This document shows, one piece after another, positions 6,306 to 63,456 of a stretch of 64,000 bases of DNA; the stretch's first letter is position 1; every line of letters begins with the position of its first letter. The notes under the pieces are model-generated. The model did no database searches, was not told the DNA's origin, and was given only the letters and a program-made list of their open reading frames with translations. Source of the stretch: Darksidea phi (Eukaryota > Ascomycota > Dothideomycetes > Pleosporales > Lentitheciaceae). A program made the translations under genes and the position numbers. Location of the stretch: NCBI GenBank assembly GCA_030770425.1, contig JASJFT010000036.1, forward strand, positions 124,001 to 188,000, given 5' to 3'.

Positions 6306-9300
6306 TCAAGATACCTGTAAGCAGTTAGCAAATCTGACCCGGTTCCTAACTTCCAACCGCGAACAGGGTATACTCATGTGGGAGTGTAGTTACCTCAGAT
6401 ATATTTTGCATTTCGATGTACGACTGTTGATTGACATCTCGGCCTACACGCCAATATACATCCGTGTAGTCTGCGCAGTTCATCTCACGCAAGAACTGCT
6501 CGTCGTGCGTGATAACCAGGAGCTGGAAGTTGGCCTGCTTACGCCGAATCTGAATAATCTGGCTGAGGGATTCAGCGAGTCCCTTAATATTTTGCTGGTC
6601 GAGGTTGGTGGTAGGCTCGTCCAGCGCGATGAGGCCGCAATTGGTGCCGAAGCATTCTGCGAGCGCAAGGCGAATCACAATGCTGGCAAGGACCTTTTGG
6701 CCCGCACTGCAGCGACCGCGCATGTCCATTTCTGTCTGGTTCTTTATCATGACGACGCGGTAATTGTAGGAGCGGTTGCCGCGGCCAGTCTCGTTGTCGG
6801 AGCGGATGCGGACTGTGTCAACGTCAGTGCCCTGGTATGCGTTGCGCCAAAGCTCCTCAATGATGCGGTTGATCTCCTCCATTTTGAGCGAGTGATACTT
6901 CAAGATAGCTTGGTCAAGAGCACTTGCATAGCGCACAAGATCTTCGCAGGCGGCCTTTGTGGTTTCGACCTTGATGTGCATTTCACGGTACGTGCTCGCG
7001 GCGTCCTGATACTCCTGTTTATACTCCTCGATAAGTTCATTTAGCTGAATGTCCTTCTGCTTCAGGGTAGAGCTGAGCTCAATCCGCTCGGCGTTCAAGC
7101 GATGGTGTTCGTCAGTCCAGTGCTGGCCTTGATTTTGCCAGTGTGTTTGATCGTTTTCCGCATTCTGATCCTGCAGTTCCTGGATCTCCCTCTCGAGCGT
7201 TTCCAGAGCTCGCTTAGCCCTCCGGTACCGAAGGTTGTCGAAGATTGACTGCTTCGTGTGCTCGGTGCTGCTCAGAGTGTCCTCCATTTGCTTGACATCG
7301 CGTGCGACTTGCGACATGTCTTTTTCAATACGCTGGATTTCCTTTTTAAAATCCTCCATTTCTTGCCGAGTCTGAGCTAGGCGGTGGGGCCCACCTTTGT
7401 TGATGTATGCGGTAATCTCCTCCTCTGCACTGGCGAGCTGACGGACACTGTCCGAGAGCTTGGAAGATTGCTCGTGCAAGCTCTGTACCTTTTCAACGCC
7501 GCGACGGTTGACGGCGTCGTAGTTGACTTGCGCTTGCTCCATCTGGGGAAAGAGAGATTCAATTTCCGCATCCACACCACGAATCGCTTCCCGCTGCTTT
7601 GTGTTCTCAGCTCTATATTCCTCAATGCGCACCGCTAATGCTTGTTTCTCCTTCAAGCTAGCCTGTGCAGCACTCAGTTCAGCATTGATGTCGCGAACAC
7701 GAATCTCAAGCGTACTTGTGAGCTTTCGCGACTTTTCTCGCTCACTGGTAAGGCTTGATAGTGTCGCTTTGATACTGCGACTCTCCTCAGTGGCCTTCTG
7801 GAGATCGTCTCGGATAGCGTTGATTCCTCTAGAGAGCCCACCAGCTTTCTGCTTCTTTTTAAGACCATCGATCTCAGTCTCGAGTTCGCACACTTCGTTG
7901 TAGTATTTGAGGATGGACCGTACGTCCGCAGAAAGAGTATCGACCTCCTGCTTCGAGCTTTGTAGCTCATAGATGATGGCATCATGCTCCTCCAGCTCTT
8001 TGTTGATCACTTCACGCTCTGATATCAATCTCTCAAGCTCATTCTTGAGGGCGGGCAGTTCCGTGTCTCGCGCACGTACAGCCAACTCGTAGCTGGGTTT
8101 GGCATTTCGCACTGCCTCGAGCTCGGCGAATAGCTCGTCCGCGTTCTCTGCTGCAGCATTTTTTAGGGCTTTGGTGACAGTGTTCTCGAGACCGGAAATG
8201 AATCCAGCCCTTGTGAAATGTTCTGCTTTATCATCTTTCAAGGTACGCTTGCAGAGGCGGCATTGGTTGTGATCTTTTGCAACCTTTAAGCAGGCTTGCA
8301 TGTACTCCAGCTGAGCCTCGATCTTGGCCTGGTCAGAAGACGTCAACTCGTAGCTTTCTTCAAGCTCTGCTAAAGTTTCGTCAAAGTCAGAGATGTCGTC
8401 CTTTGAGATGGCATCTAATATAGTCTTCTCGTATTTCTGGAACTCTGCGCGCTTCTTCTTTTGCTCTGATTCAACATTGGATAACTTATATTTGAGGTTC
8501 TCGAGCTTGCTCAGAGCAATGTCACGTCGCGATTCTGCCTCCTTGACTTTGGTAGTCTTCTCTGATACAGCTCGCTGGAAGGCGTTTTCAAGGGTCGCAA
8601 CGTCCCAATCGGGGTCGACAAGCTTCGAGATGCGGGCGTCATGCACCTTCTTCATTGTTCCAAGGCTGTGCTTTGCTCCCTTGAGCTTATTCTGGGCAAA
8701 GTCGACCTGAGCAGTCTCGGCTGCAAGCTGGGTAGCCTCGACAAGCTCAGTCTCCAAGCGCTCCTTCTTTCCATCCACCGTCGAGACCATCCTGTCAGCA
8801 TCGTGTATCCGTTCGTCGTACTGACCATTGGCAGCAACAGAGATGGCTTTCCTCAGCTGCTCTTCGGTCTCTTGCTTCCGGTCCAAGAGAATCGCTTCAG
8901 CGCCTTCGTCGGTATGGATCTTGTTCATGGTCGTCTGCAGCTCAGATATTCGCTGGTCGTTTGCTGTAATTTGACTCTTGCTGATGTCCTTGCGTTGTTT
9001 CAAGCCCGACCTCTTTTCACCAAGCCGGTTAACCTCAGCCTGTGCCTGCTGGAGTTCTTCCTGGGCCTCTTTACGAGCACGTTCGAGGGCCTTGTCCTGC
9101 TCGCGCGAAAGCTTTCCTAGGAGCTGCTGAAAGTCGGCAATTTGATCGGCGGTGATATCGTGCTCAAAGCCGCTGATATTGTGGCGCATAGCAGTCTCCT
9201 TGATGAGATTCTCACGTTTCAGCAGATTACGCACGTGCTGGTCCTGCTCGGCCTCATGCTTGCCAACCTCACCCTGTTTCGCGCCAAGAGAGTTGCGGTA

Positions 9301-10409
9301 ACCCTGAAGGTCCTTTTGCAGCGCAAGATACTCCCCTTTGCGCTCGTCATGCTCTTCCTCATAGTGTTGCACACGCTCTTGATACTGCTCCAGCATCGTC
9401 TCGAGCTCTTCATCGGTCTCGGCCAGTATCTTCAAATTATCCTCTAGCGACGTCACGTTCTCCTTGTTTGTCTGGAATGCGACACGCTTCCCATTCAGTT
9501 GCGCGATGAGTTGCTCAAATTTGGCGGCATGCGTGTAAGCCTCCGTGGCTCTCTGTTGCGCATCGTTGCACTCAGATTCGATGGCTTCAAATTTTGTCCT
9601 CAGCTCTTCCATCTCATCAAAGAGCTTGGCTTGTTTCTTCTCGCTATTTTCGCCTCTGATCTTATTCTCCTTGGCGTGCTTCTCATTGGCCTGGTAGGTA
9701 GCCAGCTCGTGAACTTGCTGCTTTCGGATCGCTCTGATGTTGTCGATGGCCTTGGTGTACTTCTCCGCCTCGAAGATGGAATCGAACTTCTTCTTCAAGT
9801 TGGAAGGCTCGCTCATGGGCCACAAGCTATCGTCCTGATGGCAAAAGATGACGTTCTCTAGGATGGCTTTTGACACGCCAAGATACTGCGGTAGAATCTG
9901 GTCCAGCTCGGCGACGCGAGAGGAGATGGTCTCCGTGAGACCGTCTCGCTTCATCTCCAACGAGCCCTCGAGGGTTTTTTGACTCCGCGTCGTCTTCTTC
10001 AAGGTGACCTGCAGGCTGCGAGTGGCGACCATGCGGACACCAGACGTGGACTGGAAGCCGAGCTTGACTTGGGCCATCGTCTCTTTCTCACCCACCAACT
10101 TCGGATCGTGGATGAATGCACCTCCGGTCTTGCTGTTGGACGGTAGCTCACCGGTAGTCGCAAACTTGAGGCATTCGATGATGGTCTGGCGCAACGTTAG
10201 TGACGTTTAGCTCCTGTGCCGGATGCCGCTTCTTACCGTTTTGCCAGAGCCATTCCAACCGACAATGAGAGTCAAGGGCGCATTGAATCGTATCACCTCG
10301 CCATGTGTGGGCCCGAATGAGCGGATGCTACACCCGTCAGCATGTGACAAGCTACACAGGGGCGGAACGAGACTTGCCCCATGATCTGCATGCGATCGAT
10401 TTTCGACAT
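6306..10409 (-). CDS. rad50: DNA double-strand-break repair protein Rad50 (SMC-like ATPase)
   Basis: ATPase of the Mre11-Rad50-Nbs1 complex in the nucleus, for break sensing, end resection and telomere upkeep. Four exons: 10409-10378, 10327-10237, 10185-6394, 6314-6306 (1307 aa, normal for the family). The start reads [17 protein letters not shown]. Walker A is GWNGSGKT (about residues 34-41). Next come long heptad coiled coils interrupted by the zinc hook CRLC (about residue 681), then the ABC signature [10 protein letters not shown], and Walker B with D-loop [11 protein letters not shown]. Intron 1 uses a GC donor (GCAAGT) and is needed to join MQIMG to IRSFGP. The last exon is only 9 nt, adding Val-Ser-stop after NISE; read-through of that intron would add about 14 residues instead. 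Head to head with WC-2 at a distance of 524 bp. Confidence 0.96.
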
Positions 10410-10933: not shown

Positions 10934-12384
10934 ATGGCAGGCCTCGCGCCGATGCCAGGTCTGCCCGCCGACCAAGCGCCCGACCTCAATATGGGCCTGG
11001 ACGACATAATGCCCATGGAGATGGACCTCTCTCAGCTCGACGCCGACGGCCCACCACCCAATGCCACCCCCACGACCTCGTTCGCACCCTTCGCCCAGCA
11101 GCTGCAGCCGAGCGTGCCCCCTCCACCGAGCGATGTCTACACACACGTACTCGCCCAGGAAAACATATTGACGGGCGCCGGCGCCGGTCCGCTACCCACC
11201 GGCTTTGGCGCCCCCAATCTGAACCCGGCCGGCAACGTATTGACCGAATTTACCAAGCGGCGCAACTGGTCGCAGCGCGTGCTCGAGGAGCTGTGCGACT
11301 TCCTGCACATCCTAACGCCAGATGGCAGAATCCTATATGCCTCACCCTCGTGCAAAACCCTCACCGGCTGGGAGCCCGGGCAGCTTATCGGACACTTCGC
11401 TGGCGAGTTCATCCACCCCGACGACAGCGGCATCTTCGTCAAAGAATTCAATGAGTCGATCGCATCGGGGAACCCGCTTCGTTTCTTCTACCGCTTCCGC
11501 AAACCCGACGAGACGTGGGCCATCTTCGAGGCCCACGGCCATCCGCATCTGAGCCGCGACACCAGCGCCTACGCACCGCCCAGCAGCATGAACTGCCGCG
11601 GCTTCTTCATGATGGCCCGCCCGTACCCCAGCAAAAACGCTGCCCTCCTCGACTCCTTCCTCGAGCACAAGATTGAGAACGAAAGGCTCATGAAGCGGAT
11701 AGCGGAGCTCAAGCGCGAGGAGCAAGAAGAGCAGGACGCGTTAGATAGACACTGGCAGCAGAAATCTGAGGCCGTGTCCTATGTTCCGAAGTCGGAGACG
11801 CCGGGACGCTCTGAGAGCGAGAGTGCTGTTGCCGCGTACAATGCCATGCCACCGCCTGCGAAGCCTGTCATATCGAACACAGCTCTTACACGCCAGAACC
11901 TCGACGAGGCGCTGGCCGCTAGTAAGCCCGACAGCATCAATGACAAAATGGCACGCTATGAAGGGGCGACACATCTGGAGACGATCGAGATGCTGACCGG
12001 CTTGCGATACCGGGACGGCGAACGGTCTCAAGGCATCAGCACAGGAGAGCACAGTCCAATGTTGATTCGAGGCGACGCCGGTATCCAGATCTCGCTCGAT
12101 CGCGACGTGAGGACGTCATTAGACAAAAAGAAGAAACTGAAGATTGCAGACGAATATGTTTGTACTGATTGCGGCACCTTGGACTCCCCGGAATGGAGAA
12201 AGGGTCCCAACGGCCGGAAAACGCTTTGTAATGCTTGCGGCTGTAAGTCCTCCCTTTACTTTACAAAAGAGTAGCACTGACCTCGGCAGTACGCTGGGCA
12301 AAGAGGGAGAAGAAGATGAGGCAGAGCCAATCGGGTGTCTCGCAACCCCTAGCTCTGTCGATGGAAACGAATTCTGATAGCTGA
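10934..12384 (+). CDS. wc-2: White collar 2: PAS and GATA-type zinc-finger transcription factor
   Basis: Partner of the blue-light receptor WC-1 in the white collar complex, acting in the nucleus on light-regulated and clock genes. Two exons: 10934-12242 and 12290-12384 (467 aa). A PAS domain begins near residue 115 ([18 protein letters not shown]) and continues through [10 protein letters not shown] and the [11 protein letters not shown] region. A charged helical stretch follows near residue 240. The single GATA finger starts near residue 410 as CTDC-(18 residues)-CNAC and is completed in exon 2 by LRWAKREKK; the intron splits the finger after CNACG. One finger with one PAS and no LOV cysteine signature distinguishes it from WC-1. 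A 5'-UTR intron is likely. Appears intact. Confidence 0.93.
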
Positions 12385-24196: not shown

Positions 24197-25724
24197 CTAC
24201 AGTTTAATGGAGACGTCTAATCGGTCCAATGCAACTGCAACTCCTGCTAGCGTAGCCATGTAGCCCACTAAAACAACCATCGTCTCTAGGATGCCCATAT
24301 GCAAGGTTGGCATAGTCATGTTCACGAGCCCTGTAAGCAGGTTCGCCAGCAAGAAGACGGCCAAACCATTACGATTGATGGCATACAGCATCTTACTCGT
24401 TGCGTCCTTGCACTTCTGCTTTTCCTCTTCTTTCATAGTAACTTTGTGTATGTTTGGAAACAACACAGTTTCAATAGCGCAGCATATCGCGATTTGGTAA
24501 CTGTTGAAGGAGCAAACCCACAGAAAGTAGGGCAGGTTGGCCAATCGTCGCGAAACACTGAGCCCAAGACCGTAGTAGCTAATAGAGAAGTGGAACAGGG
24601 CCGTCCATGAAAGGGCAGTGATGACAAGCTTGCCCAGAATCGATTGCCGAAATCTTGCTGCTGCTGATGTCGTCTTGGGAAGCGGCCGCTGCCTCGGTAG
24701 CGCAATTGAGCCTAGAGATTGTCCGGCAAGGAAGATTGCGAGATAACCGAACAAGGAGAAGATTCCCTCCCGGTTTTTTGAGATCAAGTCGGTCCGAGGA
24801 GCGGTTAGAATAAAAGCGCTGAGCCTAGTCTTGTCCAGAGCTAGCTCGTAAGCCGCGGCTAGAATGCAAGATAGAACCGCATAGGACGGTATGAGGGCAA
24901 AAGCTGACTGGAACAGCGCGACAAATGGCGGTAGAAAGCCAAGCGTGAAGAAAAAGTTCCAGTGTACGCCATATTCAGTAACGTGCTCTGCATAGTCCAG
25001 TCCTTTGACCGAAACAAGCCTTACAACACCCAGGACCAACAGCGGCAGCGCATGCCTCATTGACGCAACCAAGCGCTTCGAAAGCGGCGGAAGCTTCCCA
25101 CCCTGCGTTTTGAGGGAGGACCGGACAGACACGACGCCATTCGTGAAGACGAAGGATCCAACTCCCATGTCCATCAGCGATGTTCCCCAATTCTCGACTT
25201 TCGCAAACCGTCGGGGAAAGACGCGAAAGTCCACAGCCAGAATGGCGATGCATGTTATGACCATCATGGAGCCGCGATAGTGTGTGATGAAGGGTTTCAT
25301 GGGTAGCGGGTCGAGAGTAGTATCTCCGCTGTTACCGGTCTTCTTCGGGGGTCGCAGTGCATTCCGCCTCGCGGCGGCTTGCGGTGTTGAGGCGTAGAGG
25401 AAGGCGGCGGGGAGCAGCAGGAGTGCATTCAGGATCCATGGTGACGACGAATAGACGGTAGTCGCGCCAAGCGTCACTCCACAATTGAGCAGAAAATCGA
25501 CGAGAAAGGCGCTATGCGTGTACGGCACAAATTGTCGCGTACGCGACTGAAGGACAGACCACAAGAGTATCGTGAACTACCAGCGGTTAGCATAGGCAAA
25601 GCGTGAGGCCATGGGCCATGTACGGTACAGGCATTGCAAGAGAGACACTGTTGATGTCGAAGAGGGAGCTCCCCGTGAGCCCGGAGACATGCTCCATCTT
25701 TAGTTGCTTGTAGTCTTTCGCCAT
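24197..25724 (-). CDS. gwt1: GPI-anchor biosynthesis inositol acyltransferase Gwt1
   Basis: Acylates the inositol of GlcN-PI in the ER membrane, an early step of GPI-anchor assembly (PIG-W in animals). Two exons: 25724-25629 and 25576-24197 (491 aa). The start reads MAKDYKQLKMEHVSGLTGSS and the intron joins INSVSLAMP to FTILLWSVLQSRTRQ, as in Gwt1 homologues. The body is a multi-pass membrane protein with about a dozen hydrophobic segments. Conserved blocks include KPFITHYRGSMM, DFRVFPRRFAKVENWGTSLM, DMGVGSFVFTNGVVS and EYGVHWNFFFTLGF. NREGIFSLFGYLAIFLAG and ANLLTGLVNMTMPTL near the C-terminus are also typical. Appears complete. Confidence 0.95.
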
Positions 25725-35518: not shown

Positions 35519-37981
35519 CTACTCTCCTTCCCTCCCCCCACTTCCCTCCAGAATACCCACGTCACGCTTGAACCGCCACAACCACTCCAAATTATCCGCA
35601 ATAGTCTGGTTCCAGGGATCATCGCTGCCACGTCAATTTCAGCAAAGTCACGTTACCCTTTGGCCCTATAGCGCTGCCCGAAACCACCAAAAAAGTCGTA
35701 TCCAATATGGGGAATAGTAGACTCACCAATCATATATTATCCACCGCGCTTGGTGCTGAATCTCCTCGTCGGACGGAACATGGCAGTTTGGATTATGCGA
35801 CGATGTGGTGGCGGCGACCCAGCGCGTGAGGTCGCGCACGAACCAGGGATAGAAGTTTGCATCGCCAGGGAAGAAGGTTGCCGGGCGAGTTGGAGGGTTA
35901 AGCGGAGATTGATCTGTTATATATGAGGTCTTTAGTTGTTGGAAGTGAGAGCATGGGTCGTGGCAATGCTCAGCCCTTGCCATATACGGTTCGAGGGTCT
36001 GAGCATCTTGGTTGCTGGGTTTGGTAGTGGGTACGATATGTAATTGTGTGACGGTCCCCGTGCGCTCCTTGAAGTTGGAAAGCCAGTGCACATCCGAGAC
36101 GATGAGTTTGATTAGCCAGTTGGCGAAGAGGTCATTCGGGGTGGTCGATTCCTTTTCCATCCGGCGAACTATTTCGCAAGCCATTTCCTGCATCTTTTCT
36201 TCTTGAGCCATGATCCCTGCTTGCTTTTGCAGCTCGAAAAATGCGCAAAGCTGCGTCTCAAGTGGACACTTCTCAAATATATTGTCTTGACCCTTGATTA
36301 TCAACTCAGGAAGTCTGCCCTCGCTGCACAACCGTAAAGGTCCAAACTGAGCTTCGTGCTTAAGATGCGCAGAAGACATGATTAAATCCCGCAGCCATGA
36401 AGAGGATGCTGGTAGTTGCATGCTACACATAGTATTATCAGACGAAGCGTCGGATGCAAATATTATGCGGCAAGCCTCACGCTGCAGGTCGTCGTCTGAT
36501 GGCAATCTCCCTTTCTTATCGAAATAGTTCTGAATGAAACATTCTAACTCGATCTTTAGGAGCTCGTAGGCATTGAGTGGGGAGCACAATAGAACGTTAC
36601 TGGCCGCGAATGGCACAGCGCTGGCTCGCTCAATGTCGATAAAGTATGGGGGTACGGCACTCTCCACTATGTTCAGAATAGCGGGGTCAAAGCCCCATTC
36701 ACCCTGCCAGTCAGCCATCGTCTTCCCCGCTTTGAAGTGTTCAGCAAGGTGTTCAGTCCGTTCCGACCATGTGTTCATTTCCAATCCGCAAAATCCGCAT
36801 CGTGATCGAACGTTGGGCAGAGACCTTCTCCAATGGCTCATTGACCATTCTGCGTACTTAACACCATGAAATAACCGCAGGTGCTGACTGAGATGGTCTT
36901 TCCTTTGAAAGGTACGCTCTTCCAAGCTTCTTCCCTGGCAAGTAGAGTAATAGTGAGACTCGATGTGGGCATCGTTTGGGTCATCTCTGCTACAGAAGAC
37001 GCAGCAGGGTGTTCCGGTCCTATCTTTGGGAGCACGAGGTCCATTTAATGCGCAGACCCAATGCTCAAGAGGGAGATGAAGCGACTTCTCGTGGCGCTGC
37101 CAGTCGTACTTGGTCTTGAAAGTCTCTGTACAGAAGGTACACTGGTATGTCATCGTAGAAAGTGCGATATATCCGTTCTCGGTACGTCTCTGTCTTCGCA
37201 CGCGTCTTCGACGCGGTGGATGAGAGCTCTTCAGAGAGGATTGCGACCCTGAGGAGTGGAAGCCAGAAAATTCACTGGAGTTTGATGTTCTCACGCTGCT
37301 CGCTGAGGACATGCCATACGGAGATTGTAATGTGTGGTCATGTGTATAGTCGAGAGAATGAGAAGTACTGCGTGTCACGGCGCGGGCAATTGCGCCGACG
37401 CTTGCTGGTTCATTCTCCGGCGGTGAATCAACCCAGCGCTCCAAGGGGGTCATAAGACACGAGTTCTGCCTGACTGCTGGTGTTGCCGGGCGTGGAATAA
37501 TGTCCATGGGCTTCGTTGACGAGGCCTGAACTTGTGGTGTTGTGGGTCGAGTGCCCCGCACACAGCCACGGCGACGGGCATTCGCGAACCAGTTTGTGAT
37601 CTGCGTCCTGTTGAGACCAGTTTGGTTCTGCAGGAGCTCTAACTCGGTGGGATCAGGGTAGGGACAATGTGCGTGGGAAGCGAGCCATTTCCTCAATATA
37701 CCAAGGACGTGTCTTGAGAATCGGCCACACAACTTCGGTGGGATTACCGCATCGCCTGAGGATGGAGTCGACGGGACGGTGGAAGAGAATTGGGACGGAT
37801 TCTGGGGTTCGATTTCGAGGAACGGTACATCACTGGAACCGAAGGGGGTAGCAGGCAAAGCTGTCGCTAATTCAGCCGAACCATCATCGCCCAAAGCATG
37901 GTCCAATTCGATAGCGTCTTCCCAAAAGGGCAACGACGGAAAAACGATAGATTCGTCCCAGGAAGCACTCATCAAGCTCAT
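35519..37981 (-). CDS. Homeodomain (KN/TALE-like) plus C2H2 zinc-finger transcription factor
   Basis: Likely nuclear DNA-binding regulator. Two exons: 37981-35727 and 35624-35519 (786 aa). The homeodomain (about residues 84-142) includes RHVLGILRKWLASHAHCPYP and TQITNWFANARRRG; the proline-containing loop and WFANARRR are typical of KN homeoboxes. An SP-rich linker and a very basic block PPRRRRVRRQRRTENG (probable nuclear localisation signal) follow. Then come a clear C2H2 finger YQCTFCTETFKTKYDWQRHE and at least one degenerate finger CGFCGLEMNTWSERTEHLAEH. The C-terminus is helical and conserved. Splicing out 35625-35726 replaces an early stop with CDDPWNQTIADNLEWLWRFK, a typical ending for this fungal family, so the short unspliced form is unlikely. 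Target genes unknown. Confidence 0.88.
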
Positions 37982-46706: not shown

Positions 46707-46720
46707 AAAAAAGAAAAAAA
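46707..46720 (-). terminator. RNA polymerase III terminator of the tRNA-Gly
   Basis: On the minus strand, 13 nt past the discriminator base, the sequence reads TTTTTTTCTTTTTT. This is more than enough for Pol III termination and indicates that the tRNA locus is (or was) a genuine Pol III unit and not only a fragment. Confidence 0.7.
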
Positions 46721-46733
46721 GTGAATGTGCTTC

Positions 46734-46864
46734 TGCATCGGCCGGGCTGTATTCAATATTAGTCAACTTATATCATAACATATTTGGCGGTACTTACAAT
46801 CGAACCCGGGGCTAGCCGATGTTGCTTTTGGCAACGGCTAATTTTACCACTAAACCACCGATGC
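46734..46864 (-). tRNA. tRNA-Gly(GCC) with a 9-nt anticodon-loop intron and a 51-nt spliceosomal-like insert
   Basis: The minus strand starts GCATCGG, which pairs perfectly with CCGATGC at 46741-46735. The A box TGGTTTAGTGG is present. The anticodon stem AGCCG/CGGCT encloses TTGCCA (anticodon GCC), then nine extra bases AAAGCAACA at the usual 37/38 intron site, with GTTGC/GCAAC pairing. The T-stem CCGGG and loop TTCGATT are then interrupted by 51 bases (46797-46747) before the 3' T-stem CCCGG. The insert begins GTAAGT, has TTGACTAAT near its end and finishes ACAG. Removing both segments leaves a normal 71-nt tRNA with every stem intact. The insert splits the B box (GGTTCGATT|CC). Whether this locus makes functional tRNA is unknown. 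Confidence 0.85.
46747..46797 (-). other. 51-nt spliceosomal-intron-like insert inside the tRNA-Gly T arm
   Basis: 5' GTAAGTACC, branch-point-like TTGACTAAT with its A about 12 nt before the end, and 3' ATACAG. Length, donor, branch point and acceptor match the short protein-gene introns elsewhere in this window. It sits exactly between tRNA positions 60 and 61. No target-site duplication was visible, and no second copy was noticed in the window by eye. Confidence 0.75.
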
Positions 46865-51153: not shown

Positions 51154-54100
51154 ATGTCTTCTGCCGCCGTGCAGCAGAGCGGCCCCGCCCTATCCAGCCG
51201 AGCGCCGCATTCACAGCAGCAGTACTACTCGCAGCAGTCGCCCGCCGCCGCCGCTTCACCGGGCTCCACAAGAAAGCACTCGCGACGGCCCAGTAATGGC
51301 GCGTCGCCCAATCCGCCAACCACGCCCCAGACCCACCACTCTCCGGCCGTGTCTGCCCACTCCAACGTGAACACTCCACGCGCCCCGCCGACGTCTGCAC
51401 ACGAATCTCCCGCCATGGCCACGGCCGCCGCCCCCTCTGCCAGCGCGCCCATGCCCCCGCCGCGCACCTCGTCCCATCGCCAAAACAGCCCGTCCGCACC
51501 CCGCGCACCTCAGGATGCCGCCCAGTCCCGCAGGAAAGGAAAGGACGGCCCGCGACACCAGGGGAGCTCCAGCAGGTCGAAGCCCTCGCAGCCTACACAC
51601 AGTCGGTCTGCGTCCGCGGTCGGCCAGCCCCCAGCAGGCACAAGCCTTCCCCGCGAAGAGAGCACAGTCATCAACAGAATCGTGGTTGCAGACCCGCAGG
51701 AAGACATTGCCCGCGAACAGGCCCGGCAAGCCGAGTCAGTCCCCGCAGCTTCCGGCGCCGATCTTACTCCCATCACCGGTCTTGGCCTTGTGGGCAGCGA
51801 GGGCGTAGATGATGGCGGTCGCGGCGCAGGAAGGAGCCGCCAGGACCACTCCCAAGGCTCTGGGAAACGCTCACGCTTTGGCAACTATGTGCTAGGGCAA
51901 ACACTCGGCGAGGGTGAGTTTGGCAAGGTCAAGATGGGCTGGAAAAAAGACAGCAGCGTCGAGGTGGCCATCAAGCTGATACGGAGAGAGACGCTCGGGG
52001 GCAACGCAAACCGCCTACAGAAGATCTACCGCGAAATTCACATCCTCCGCGGACTCGAACATCCCAATATTGTCAGACTCCACGAAATGGTGGAGACGGA
52101 GCGTCACATCGGCATCATATTAGAGTATGCGTCGGGCGGCGAGCTCTTTGACTACATCCTCAACCATCGATACCTGAAAGACGGCGCAGCACGTAGACTG
52201 TTCGCCCAGCTCATCTCTGGGGTGGGCTATCTCCACAAGAAGGGCATTGTGCACCGCGACTTGAAGCTGGAGAATCTGCTGCTCGACCGCAATAGGAATA
52301 TCATCATCACCGATTTTGGGTTCGCCAACACCTTCGACCCGGACGACGAACTGGGAGAGGACATAGAATTCAACCTCTCGAACAAGGAATTCGTGAAGGC
52401 TATGGGACTGGAGGGCGGCGAGGGTGTGCGTCGCGGCGATCTCATGCAGACTAGCTGTGGCAGTCCCTGTTATGCAGCCCCAGAGCTGGTAGTCAGCGAC
52501 TCGCTATACACTGGTCGCAAAGTTGACGTATGGAGTTGCGGAGTCATTTTGGTACGTCGTATGTAGACCCACGTCTCTACACATGCTGACAACCTGTAGT
52601 ACGCCATGCTAGCCGGCTACCTTCCCTTTGACGATGATCCAGCCAATCCCGAAGGTGACAACATCAACCTTTTATACAAGTACATCGTATCTACTCCGCT
52701 CACATTCCCCGAATATGTCACACCGCATGCTCGCGATCTGCTCAAGCGCATTCTCGTCCCGGACCCCAGAAAACGTGCAGACCTGTTCGAGGTGGCCCGG
52801 CACAGCTGGCTCAGCGACTTTGCGCACGTGGTCAGCTTCATTACTTCTAGCGCCACTACGTCTAACGACATGCAGAAGGCTGCGACTATCAATAGTATGT
52901 TTCATGCAATCTGCTCTGGCTATTTGCGTGCTAACTCTGAACAGAAGATCCGCTCGAAGCACCGCCAGCATTAGCAAGAAGCGCCTCTGTTCGTGAGCCA
53001 GGGAAACCGCATACCGCAGTCGCTCCTACACATGGCGGACTTACGGCGAAGCGTGAACAGATCAATCAGCCGCCAACAGACAAGTCGAAGAAGGATCGGG
53101 ACAACAAACGAAGAACTGTTCAGGTCGAGTACGTGGCACCTCAATCGCAGACTGCCCGCGGCGAAGCTTCGCCCCCAATTGTCCCAACAACAACCTCTAA
53201 GGCACGGGCCAAGGAACAGGGTCCAACCGAAGTGCCGTCCACGGATGGCTACAACGCTCGGCCCAGTCGTACCACAGCTAGCACTACTGCAGGGGCTGCT
53301 TCGCGACCTGGCCGGGAACCTCAAAGATCCGTTTCGGATTACACTGCCTTTGGTACGATGCCTCCAACTTCTGCTGCCCGTCCCTCAACCGGTGGGACGC
53401 TGGGTGCAAGCTCTCGTTTACCATCAAGAGGCAATTCATATAGTCAGCCTGCGACTGCTACCGTTGCCCAGACTAATGCGGAAGGCCGCTTCTCGCAACC
53501 AAAGGGCAAACAATACTCCATTTCCTCGCCCGGTGCTCAGCAAGGATCTGAGATGGGTCAACCAAGCATTGGACAGCCAAGTGCGCAACGAGTGCATTCA
53601 ATACAAACCGAGCAGAAAGGGCATAGGCGCTCGAACACGGTTAGTGAGACCCTAGGCAGGGTGACGTCGATGTTTTCGAGCCGTCAACCGTCCTATCCGC
53701 AAGACCCCAAAGAATCTTCCACTACCCAAAACTCGAACTACGCGCATGAGAAGCTCCAGAAGTCCTATCCTCCCACTTCTATGCCTGGACCTATTGCTAA
53801 TGATAATGCTCCTCGGCAGAGCAACGAATCGAGCAGGCGAACATCATTCGGCTTCTCGCGTAAGACTACGAATGAGTCGAACAACACTGGCAAATCAAGT
53901 AGAAGGTTTTCACTCATTCCGTCTTCGCTTTCCAAAACATTCTCCTCTAATCAGAGAGAAAGTATGCCGGCGACGACGCATTCAGGTCGCCGGGGCTCGT
54001 CGACTGCTCCTAGCCGCCCCCGAGCCACCTCTCGTCCTGGCCTGGGCTTTGGCCACGGTGGCGGATCCCGTACTCCTAGTCAGAGTACTACGGGAAGCAA

Positions 54101-61344: not shown

Positions 61345-63456
61345 TCAATCAATCACGACCATGACCTTGGCCTTTTTCTGCTGCGACATGCTAGGCGCAT
61401 CGTCAACAACACGGGTCTGCTGACGAATCCACTTTTCATTCTCATCATCATCATCATCGTCGTCGTCGTCGCCTAGGTCGATGAGCCCACGTCGCTTTTG
61501 TCCCGGTCTAGAACTCTCACCACCCTGCTCGCGCTTAATGGGCGTTCTCATTGGAAGCATCGCTGCGGCTGGTGCCATGAAAGCCCTGAGGCCGCGAGTA
61601 TCGCCGGCTGACACTCTGCTGTCCATATGCGTAAGTCCTTGGCTGACACCTTCCATGATTTTGATCTTCTTGCGCCATTCTCGTGGGTTGCGCTCAGCAT
61701 CATACCTGCTTGTTTCCAAACCGTTCACCGTCTGCAGATCCAGAGCCTCCGACCGACTATCACCCCAGAACCATGTAGCATCAAAGGATGACGTGATGCG
61801 GTTATCATTGGCTCTTGCATACTCTCTAGCTTCTAGCAAGCCTTCGCGACCCTGGTCAAGATCTTGTGCCTCGGTGGAAGGAAGCCATAAATGCATAACG
61901 TCATTCTCGAACAGGCGCCCCAGAATGCGAGAGAAGGGCACGGCAAGCTCCTTGTCCGGGGGGTGGAGCGGATACCACTTTGAATAGCCCGCTGCCGATT
62001 TCGGCGTTTCTGCATTTGTAGCACTGAACCACTCTTTGCTAGAGCGAGAGCTATCTGTCGAGTACGCGGAACCGAAAATCCAGCCTTCAGAATTGTATGG
62101 TCTGCCCTCGTCGTAGTCGTTCGCGGAAGCCTTGTCTAGACTTACTAGCTTGAGCCGGATAGATTTAATTGCTAAAATGTCCGTACAGGCTGACTGCCCA
62201 GATTTCGGTAGAAGGCGAACTGTATCGCCAACAGCCAACATTTCTGATCCGATATAAATACCGTGGCAATATATTTGTGCTTCTGGCCATTGTCCACGGA
62301 AGCGGTGTTTGCCCAGCAATGACATAGTCGCCATGACCGTCAATGCATTCTTGATGGTGGGATGCCAGCGCTCCTCTGGGATGCGAAGGTACTGTTTCCA
62401 CAGGACGAATGGCCGTGTTTGATAAATAGGGACATACTTATACCGCTTCGATATCGATTTGTTGGTATCGTTGGGGTTTGGCAATGGTTCAACTCGTACC
62501 CCAGATAGGCTAACATTAGTGTCTTTCTCACCTTGGAAAGCCGCGTCTTCTGTCGTGACATTCTCTGCAGGAGCCTGGCCAACTAGTCCGGCTTGCCACG
62601 TAGGCTCCCCTATGAAGGTCTCCGTATCGGGATCCCAGAACATATGCTCGCCGGTAGTCTCGTGCTGGAGCAAGTCGAGACCCTCGGGCACCTCCGCTAT
62701 ATATAGTACAATGTCTCCCACCCGGGGCACCCATTGTGGTGCCGCCAGAGATCGGAGTAGACCCGGCAAAATCGACTGCTCTGCCCGCCAGTCCAAGCTC
62801 ATAGGCTCGACGATCGCTTCATCTAACGTTTTGTGCACCCTCAACTTGTCGATCAGATTGCGATAGACATCAGGTGTCCCTTCCTCATCCACACGACTAG
62901 CATCCATGCCTGCCAACACCTTAGGTCTGCCTTTCTGCTGGACTGGGGTCGGCACAAAAAAGGGAGCAGAGGCGGGCGTAGGCTCAGGGCCTAATTTTCG
63001 TTTAGGTGTAGATTTTGGGGAGCTGGCTCCGCTTGAGCTTCTCTTCGACGAGCTGCCGGAGCCTTCCATCTTGGGCAATACCCCGCCTTTAGTGTTGCAA
63101 ACGGTGCAGGGACAGCCAATACTACTCCCCTCATTTTCCATGAGGTACTGGAAGTGCGGAAAAAACCGATTTGGTGAATCGAAAGGCTTGTGGTCGGGAT
63201 GTCCATAGAGCCATTTATCAACATGGGAGGGTTTCGAAACACGCGGCTTCTGAAAGAGAGCGTAGCCTGCTGGTAGGCCTTCGAGAACGTAGGTTACGCC
63301 GGGTCGGGCTTCCCCTCGAGCTTTCATCCATTGCTGGCCCAACTTCTCAAGATAGAGGGTTGGCGGGTCGACGCGGGTATACGCATTGCCCACTGGTCGG
63401 TGGGTCGCATCTGCATCTGAGCCTGGCTTGAGCGGAACGACAATATGGCGTGCCAT
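61345..63456 (-). CDS. clr2: Transcription-silencing protein Clr2 (SHREC-type complex subunit)
   Basis: By family, Clr2 is part of the Snf2/HDAC repressor complex that silences heterochromatin and mating-type loci in the nucleus. One exon, 703 aa. The N-terminal block WLYGHPDHKPFDSPNRFFPH followed by GCPCTVC is the conserved zinc-binding region. The central domain has QWVPRVGDIVLYIAEVPEGL, RIPEERWHPTIKNALTVMAT, GIYIGSEMLAVGDTVRLLP and LAIKSIRLKLVSLD, matching the Clr2 transcription-silencing domains; WFWGDSRSEALDLQTVNGLE follows. The C-terminus has nine consecutive Asp (repeat GATGAT on the coding strand) and a Lys-rich end, probably nuclear. The absence of introns over 2.1 kb contrasts with its neighbours. 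Complete. Confidence 0.9.
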   Translation of the reverse strand: MARHIVVPLKPGSDADATHRPVGNAYTRVDPPTLYLEKLGQQWMKARGEARPGVTYVLEGLPAGYALFQKPRVSKPSHVDKWLYGHPDHKPFDSPNRFFPHFQYLMENEGSSIGCPCTVCNTKGGVLPKMEGSGSSSKRSSSGASSPKSTPKRKLGPEPTPASAPFFVPTPVQQKGRPKVLAGMDASRVDEEGTPDVYRNLIDKLRVHKTLDEAIVEPMSLDWRAEQSILPGLLRSLAAPQWVPRVGDIVLYIAEVPEGLDLLQHETTGEHMFWDPDTETFIGEPTWQAGLVGQAPAENVTTEDAAFQGEKDTNVSLSGVRVEPLPNPNDTNKSISKRYKYVPIYQTRPFVLWKQYLRIPEERWHPTIKNALTVMATMSLLGKHRFRGQWPEAQIYCHGIYIGSEMLAVGDTVRLLPKSGQSACTDILAIKSIRLKLVSLDKASANDYDEGRPYNSEGWIFGSAYSTDSSRSSKEWFSATNAETPKSAAGYSKWYPLHPPDKELAVPFSRILGRLFENDVMHLWLPSTEAQDLDQGREGLLEAREYARANDNRITSSFDATWFWGDSRSEALDLQTVNGLETSRYDAERNPREWRKKIKIMEGVSQGLTHMDSRVSAGDTRGLRAFMAPAAAMLPMRTPIKREQGGESSRPGQKRRGLIDLGDDDDDDDDDENEKWIRQQTRVVDDAPSMSQQKKAKVMVVID

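Follow-up and report, generated by a model that had tools for sequence, protein, structure and literature searches.

An interrupted tRNA-Gly(GCC) gene

The window, by which we mean the whole 64,000-nt stretch of Darksidea phi DNA that was analysed, carries on its minus strand a tRNA-Gly(GCC) gene (G000:C290:170734-170864 in the assembly) that is interrupted twice, by a canonical anticodon-loop intron and by a longer insert in the T arm (Table 1). The sequence-only reading had placed the gene and its 51-nt insert here, and sequence, coordinates and boundaries all proved exact. Excision of both inserts leaves, as that reading held, a 71-nt tRNA with anticodon GCC, and its minimum-energy fold closes the acceptor, anticodon and T stems. 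The D stem is absent from the fold; by eye it is possible as GTTT/AAAT, three of whose four pairs are A-U and the fourth G-U. On inspection, no shifted excision of the 51 nt yields the same spliced product, so the boundaries of the insert are unique. Rfam and ARAGORN at default limits reported no tRNA in the window, as expected of an interrupted gene; run on the gene itself, ARAGORN returned nothing before excision and tRNA-Gly(GCC) once the insert was excised.

Table 1 Features of the window gene, the set of interrupted tRNA genes and the protein genes used for comparison or lying nearby. Positions are those of the window unless an assembly location is given.
Feature	Position	Strand	Details
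tRNA-Gly(GCC) gene, entire	46734..46864	-	G1 = 46864, C72 = 46735, discriminator A73 = 46734
Exon A, tRNA positions 1-37	46829..46864	-	GCATCGG...GTTGCCA
Canonical anticodon-loop intron (37/38), 9 nt	46820..46828	-	AAAGCAACA; bulge-helix-bulge register with TTGC, 4/4 central pairs
Exon B, tRNA positions 38-60	46798..46819	-	TCGGCTAGCCCCGGGTTCGATT; 3' end TTCGATT
Spliceosomal-type intron, 51 nt, tRNA position 60/61	46747..46797	-	
5' splice site GTAAGT	46792..46797	-	
Branch-point motif CTAAT (in ACTAAT)	46758..46762	-	A = 46759, 12 nt from intron 3' end
3' splice site CAG	46747..46749	-	insert ends ACAG
Exon C, tRNA positions 61-73	46734..46746	-	CCCGGCCGATGCA
B box	46796..46806	-	GGTTCGATT plus GT; first nine bases = consensus; at the last two, intron GT replaces CC
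T7 run, Pol III terminator-like	46714..46720	-	starts 13 nt past A73; plus T6 at 46707-46712
Gly(GCC) x3	window, C437, C79		insert 60/61
Ala(AGC)	C79		insert 52/53
Glu(CTC) x2	C335, C440		insert 52/53
Glu(TTC)	C445		insert 51/52
Lys(TTT)	C436		insert 28/29
Arg(ACG) x2	C9		insert 30/31
Leu(AAG)	C34		insert 15/16; GC-AG intron
Val(CAC)	C78		insert in D loop
Leu(TAG)	C190		insert 9/10
Ile(AAT)	C177		insert 25/26
Arg(TCT)	L191, G000:C432:65530-65810		5-nt exon TAGCG with a spliceosomal-type intron on either side (51 nt, 53 nt)
Leu(CAA)	L177, G000:C85:54238-54700		two inserts: inside the anticodon (between C34 and A35), beside a canonical-type intron; and in the T stem
Arg(ACG), decayed	L170, G000:C124:230628-230908		spliceosomal-type insert in variable loop
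Kinase intron, 48 nt	52552..52599	+	spliced product agrees with homologue P0207 at 40/40 residues over the junction
GWT1 intron, 52 nt	25577..25628	-	GTACCG...TGCTAACCGCTGGTAG; exons set by homologues P0002 and P0011
Gene matching SbcC/RAD50-like AAA domains	6346-10194	-	
Gene matching a PAS + GATA protein	10934-12274	+	
Gene matching a homeobox-KN + C2H2 protein	35723-37981	-	
Clr2-matching gene	61345-63456	-	

Three copies of tRNA-Gly(GCC)

With the 131-bp gene as query, a search of the assembly (51.35 Mb, 477 contigs) returned three loci, namely the window gene and one gene each on contigs C437 and C79. All three are interrupted at 60/61, the site named in the sequence-only reading, by inserts of 51, 53 and 51 nt (window, C437 and C79, an order kept for the signals below), and all carry an anticodon intron of 9-10 nt. 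The inserts start with GTAAGT, GTGAGT and GTGAGT, and their branch motifs are CTAAT, CTAAT and CTAAC, whose A lies 12, 10 and 10 nt from the intron 3' end; those of C437 and C79 follow the plan GTGAGT...CTAAY...CCAG. The mature tRNA is identical at 71/71 positions in all three pairs, whereas the inserts align with 38/59, 33/57 and 40/56 identical columns (58-71%; shuffled mean about 50%), and the 100-bp flanks on the three contigs are 46-57% alike in alignment. Two of the insert pairs exceed their shuffles. The window/C79 pair reaches 58% against 59% for the best of 300 shuffles, so that a common origin of these two inserts rests on their position. Exons under strong constraint beside introns that drift save for their signals point to a working spliced gene, neither a fresh insertion nor a dead one. 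The proposal of a recent insertion is accordingly unsupported, since all three copies found have diverged inserts at the same place around an unchanged mature tRNA.

A genome search for an uninterrupted copy found none. An exon-joined Gly(GCC) query with E up to 1 found the same three loci, and a pattern for the intact T arm and acceptor with up to 3 mismatches found 8 sites, comprising tRNA-Gly(TCC), tRNA-Thr(CGT) and six sites that yielded no tRNA, with Gly(GCC) absent among them. The T-loop junction pattern with 1 mismatch gave 48 matches, compared with 64 for a control pattern, and among the 30 matches read by eye the three Gly genes alone were tRNA-like. The same junction had 0 matches in prokaryote and viral contig collections, as expected of collections that should not contain this fungus. 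The codons GGC and GGU require tRNA-Gly(GCC); if the assembly is complete here, removal of the insert must be within the cell's ability.

Interrupted tRNA genes across the genome

Further tRNA genes were drawn as a sample, not a census, from the top RF00005 matches (best 50; 63 of 1735 candidates scored) and from two exact B-box patterns (77 and 52 matches; control patterns 99 and 66). The stretches around all sites were read, and B-box sites that had no ARAGORN call were read by eye, a procedure in which genes can be missed. Sixteen loci on A+T-rich contigs were excluded by eye as mitochondrial before counting, and four tRNA-like elements (L104, L105, L106 and L130) and a decayed intronless Arg locus (L190) were kept out of the tRNA counts. 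The total came to 17 interrupted tRNA genes, one of them decayed, with 19 inserts of 47-57 nt. Their hosts are Gly, Ala, Glu, Lys, Leu, Val, Ile and Arg genes, and the inserts fall in D, anticodon, variable and T arms, with tRNA position numbers besides 60/61 assigned by eye. The decayed Arg gene on C124 is included in the 17 and the 19 and stands outside the 16 genes that we call sound. By hand count, 36 distinct nuclear tRNA genes have no such insert, in a sample biased by how it was drawn.

With introns of up to 60 nt allowed, ARAGORN reported no tRNA at 13/17 loci before excision; the remaining four were called as Lys with a 50-nt intron, as Thr twice (Arg genes) and as Ala (the Val gene). 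After excision 16 of the 17 loci were called, all but the decayed Arg C124, and the isotype was as assigned in 13. For Ala C79 and both C9 Arg genes the placement of the canonical intron led to another anticodon, and their isotypes are by-eye assignments. One T-stem mismatch is left in Ile C177 after excision (by eye).

If the interrupted genes were pseudogenes, the tRNAs would come from intact copies. According to passages of PMC4090602, D- or T-arm insertions in single copies are usually read in this way; Arg C124 has indeed decayed, and intact paralogues are present for Ala(AGC), Glu(CTC), Leu(AAG) and Ile(AAT). Yet 3/3 of the Gly(GCC) copies found are interrupted around an unmutated mature sequence, exon-joined BLAST of the genome with Gly(GCC), Val(CAC), Lys(TTT) and Glu(TTC) turned up no intact gene, and the splice signals are conserved though the interiors drift. 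As an account of the set, pseudogenes are very unlikely; the decay of Arg C124 suggests that some interrupted copies may be dying. A second decayed Arg(ACG)-like copy, the intronless L190, lies at G000:C423:524380-524660.

Splice signals and the nature of the inserts

Eighteen of the 19 inserts have GT-AG ends and one has GC-AG, and every one contains a [CT]TRAY motif with its A 9-12 nt from the 3' end. Sequences obeying this rule for ends and branch point arose in 87/380,000 insert shuffles and in 35/127,898 51-mers of the window, which lends strong support to the spliceosomal type first assigned to the window insert. The base preceding the intron is G in 13/19 cases. Splice signals also guided the reading of the inserts, so the motif-free evidence consists of the comparison with intact paralogues and of the Gly boundaries. 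In 5/6 paralogue comparisons 3-4 shifts of the boundary are allowed, each time including a GT-AG or GC-AG one; the sixth comparison, of Leu(TAG) with Leu(CAG), produced no exact match.

Protein-gene introns served as a yardstick. A frame-based scan of the window that demanded splice motifs and a length of 44-79 found 14 candidates of 47-64 nt, overlapping alternatives included, and 0 in the reversed sequence; here too the branch A lies 9-12 nt from the end in 10/14. Comparison of 7 candidate junctions with homologues supported one, in the kinase gene, and did not support 6, of which 52895-52944 lies in the kinase region, where homologues were compared, and the others lie in genes outside the set of homologues used. 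The GWT1 intron was located outside the motif scan, through homologue exons, and the spliced product agrees with P0002 over the junction save for one residue (F for L). Among the 120 matches listed for the window's GWT1, the best with a name is GWT1 of Lentithecium fluviatile, at 85% identity, and nearly all the other named ones apparently belong to Pleosporales. Judged by their letters, the tRNA inserts match the architecture of this genome's protein-gene introns.

The tRNA splicing endonuclease might instead remove the inserts, as it does the ectopic bulge-helix-bulge introns of Cyanidioschyzon merolae, which passages of PMC3978253 place at D, anticodon and T-loop sites. In the exact register, however, the Gly T-loop inserts form 1, 2 and 2 of 4 central pairs where the anticodon introns of the same genes form 4/4 each (one G-U), and 0/19 inserts have all 4 central pairs, the best having 3. 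Shifts of up to 2 nt bring the window and Ala inserts to 4/4 (2/19). Canonical introns of other genes are a poor yardstick for this pairing, as ARAGORN sets their ends only roughly. This pairing test alone is not decisive, because the eukaryotic endonuclease does not strictly require the motif (passages of PMC4090602). The signals and lengths also speak against such removal: bulge-helix-bulge introns need no GTRAGT, CTAAY, AG or uniform length of 47-57 nt. A canonical tRNA intron would lie at 37/38, and the window insert lies at 60/61. We regard endonuclease removal as highly improbable.

The sequence-only reading had also raised an introner-type insertion. If introner-like elements had lately been copied into tRNA genes in a burst, this would have a background in the Dothideomycetes, where passages of PMC4457414 report such elements. 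Across 171 intron pairs, though, clear likeness was confined to the two introns of the near-identical C9 Arg genes (score 75, shuffled maximum 23); in four other pairs the lead over 200 shuffles was 1-3 points, and the part compared still included the branch motif. Nor did the 131-bp query, with which other copies of the insert were sought, match anything beyond the three Gly loci. Since interiors show no clear likeness between sites, the duplicated C9 genes apart, there is no sign of a family that has recently been copying itself; the introner label fits these introns poorly, and a burst of this kind is exceedingly improbable.

A group I core needs more than 51 nt, and the ends and branch motif of 19/19 inserts are foreign to group I introns. 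A tiny remnant of one would share the exon end U and insert end G seen here, and passages of PMC3160393 describe group I-like introns of 56-81 nt in fungal rDNA; we nevertheless give this origin almost no credence.

Transcription signals

Four or more Ts occur within 20 nt downstream of 15/16 sound interrupted genes (window background 5.5%) and a TATA-like element within 60 nt upstream of 15/16 (background 3.8%), both backgrounds including coding DNA, so that the fairer comparison is with uninterrupted nuclear tRNA genes, which have a T-run in 13/13 cases and a TATA-like element in 8/13 (14 loci given, one uncalled). The sole sound gene with no TATA-like match is the window Gly gene, and the sole one with no T-run is Leu(AAG) C34 (none within 30 nt), whose intact paralogue also has a late T-run. 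Scored against the familiar B-box consensus, the Gly genes keep 9/11 bases; the B box of the non-Gly genes is no independent evidence, since an exact B box is what led to them. In Leu C190, Leu C34 and Arg C432 the A box is split by an intron (by eye), and transcription could suffer from this. An upstream TATA perhaps eases the loss of a compact A box, by analogy with what has been proposed for C. merolae. Taken as sequence features, the T-runs, the TATA-like elements and the near-whole Gly B box fit Pol III.

Splicing by the spliceosome is as a rule tied to Pol II. The inserts could be spliceosomal introns in Pol II transcripts, with the tRNA processed out of a capped transcript, and besides the usual coupling this would suit the window copy, which has no TATA-like match in the 60 nt upstream. 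Against it stand the T-runs within 20 nt in 15/16 genes and the close upstream TATA-like elements in 15/16, as with uninterrupted tRNA genes, together with a precedent cited in passages of PMC5832005, the U6 gene of fission yeast, a Pol III gene with an intron. Pol II transcription is in our judgement quite unlikely. The sequence-only reading had offered a combined Pol II/spliceosome route; the spliceosomal type of the insert is strongly supported, and the Pol II part is unneeded given the signals just described.

U6 and SRP RNA, the two other small-RNA families examined, have no intron, so some small RNAs are unaffected. Several other loci came up beside the tRNA genes. The tRNA-like elements L104, L105, L106 and L130 (GGGATGGTCGAGTGGTG...) are dispersed, two copies have an encoded CCA end, and they are perhaps SINE-like. 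L160, L174 (these two near-identical), L184 and L193 combine a B box with an upstream TATA-like element, are unrecognised as tRNA and are possibly unknown Pol III RNAs; Rfam gave no match for L160, L184 and L193. Among ten odd loci submitted to Rfam, U6 alone scored above the cut-off.

Proposed pathway

On these grounds the window insert is very probably a U2-type spliceosomal intron that interrupts a functional tRNA-Gly(GCC) gene read by Pol III, and it belongs to a set of such introns in the fungus's nuclear tRNA genes. We infer from the sequence that the insert is excised in RNA, and transcription, splicing and the order of the steps would run as follows. Pol III would transcribe the precursor with the aid of a B box that is largely whole and, in the majority of these genes, of the upstream TATA-like element, and would stop at the downstream T-run. 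On the uncapped precursor, U1 would pair with GTRAGT and U2 with CTAAY, and the spliceosome would excise the 47-57-nt intron in the nucleus, after which the T arm, or elsewhere the D, anticodon or variable arm, could fold. With the cloverleaf restored, the tRNA endonuclease would then cut out the anticodon intron and the ligase would join the halves. Spliceosomal removal is placed first because a split T, D or anticodon arm would block the fold that the endonuclease measures; in Leu(CAA) a spliceosomal-type intron splits the anticodon itself and adjoins the canonical intron.

Taking the set as a whole, we think it likely that in this ascomycete lineage spliceosomal introns have invaded nuclear tRNA genes broadly. 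Fifteen isoacceptor-site combinations are counted to date, with positions set by eye; among them are the two introns around the 5-nt exon of Arg(TCT) and the one inside the Leu(CAA) anticodon. Several indispensable tRNAs are found interrupted only, so that translation would likely rely directly on spliceosomal processing of Pol III transcripts, and two different splicing machines would work one after the other on a single tRNA. The introns may stem from several independent gains followed by drift, or from old gains.

Conventionally, tRNA introns are assigned to an endonuclease and a ligase of their own, and those of the spliceosome mainly to Pol II transcripts. Essential tRNAs that require the spliceosome on Pol III precursors would, if the reading is true, break that division of labour and tie translation capacity to the spliceosome. 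Such precursors would offer very short substrates, checkable by their structure, for studying spliceosome recognition where cap, poly(A) tail and long exons are all missing; the shortest exon noted here measures 5 nt. Tools that find tRNAs can miss genes of this kind, as the 13/17 loci left blank by ARAGORN illustrate. Where one paralogue has the intron and another lacks it, intron gain in non-coding RNA can be tested directly.

Comparison with known systems

Among the matches listed by a full-text search of open-licence literature, none reports a spliceosomal intron in a tRNA gene; two phrase matches were a cited title on tRNA splicing of the non-spliceosomal kind and a virus meta-analysis. 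As far as searched, spliceosomal-type introns in nuclear tRNA genes are thus an undescribed set. Genes for rRNA, unlike the tRNA hosts here, are transcribed by Pol I and present in many tandem copies. The spliceosomal introns of ascomycete nuclear rRNA, cited in passages of PMC11889510, are similar in being of mRNA type and in residing in a non-coding RNA that is not a Pol II product. Closer in the size of the host are the introns of fungal U6 snRNA and U3 snoRNA, which according to passages of PMC5832005 are GT-AG (some GC-AG) with RCTRAY branch sites and lie in small structured RNAs; for U3, copies with and without introns and two-intron genes are described, as here. By the same passages, frequent interruption among small structured RNAs is known for U3 and U6 alone. 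In contrast to these, the hosts in D. phi are tRNA genes, the sites are many, and many inserts sit beside a canonical endonuclease-type intron.

In C. merolae and the nucleomorph of Guillardia theta, tRNA introns likewise occur away from 37/38, in D and T arms among other places, and some genes have two or three, as passages of the sources describe; for C. merolae, TATA-driven transcription from upstream has been proposed (passages of PMC3978253). The ectopic introns of C. merolae are assigned in those passages to bulge-helix-bulge cutting by the tRNA endonuclease, whereas the signals here are spliceosomal, and those of G. theta are given as 3-24 nt long, with the route of their removal stated to be unknown. 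Canonical 37/38 introns, removed by the Sen endonuclease, are present in the same Gly genes and differ from the T-arm inserts in position, signals and presumed machine. The introner-like elements of Dothideomycetes resemble the inserts as spliceosomal introns gained in the same class of fungi (passages of PMC4457414), and differ in forming repeated families, which the tRNA introns described here do not.
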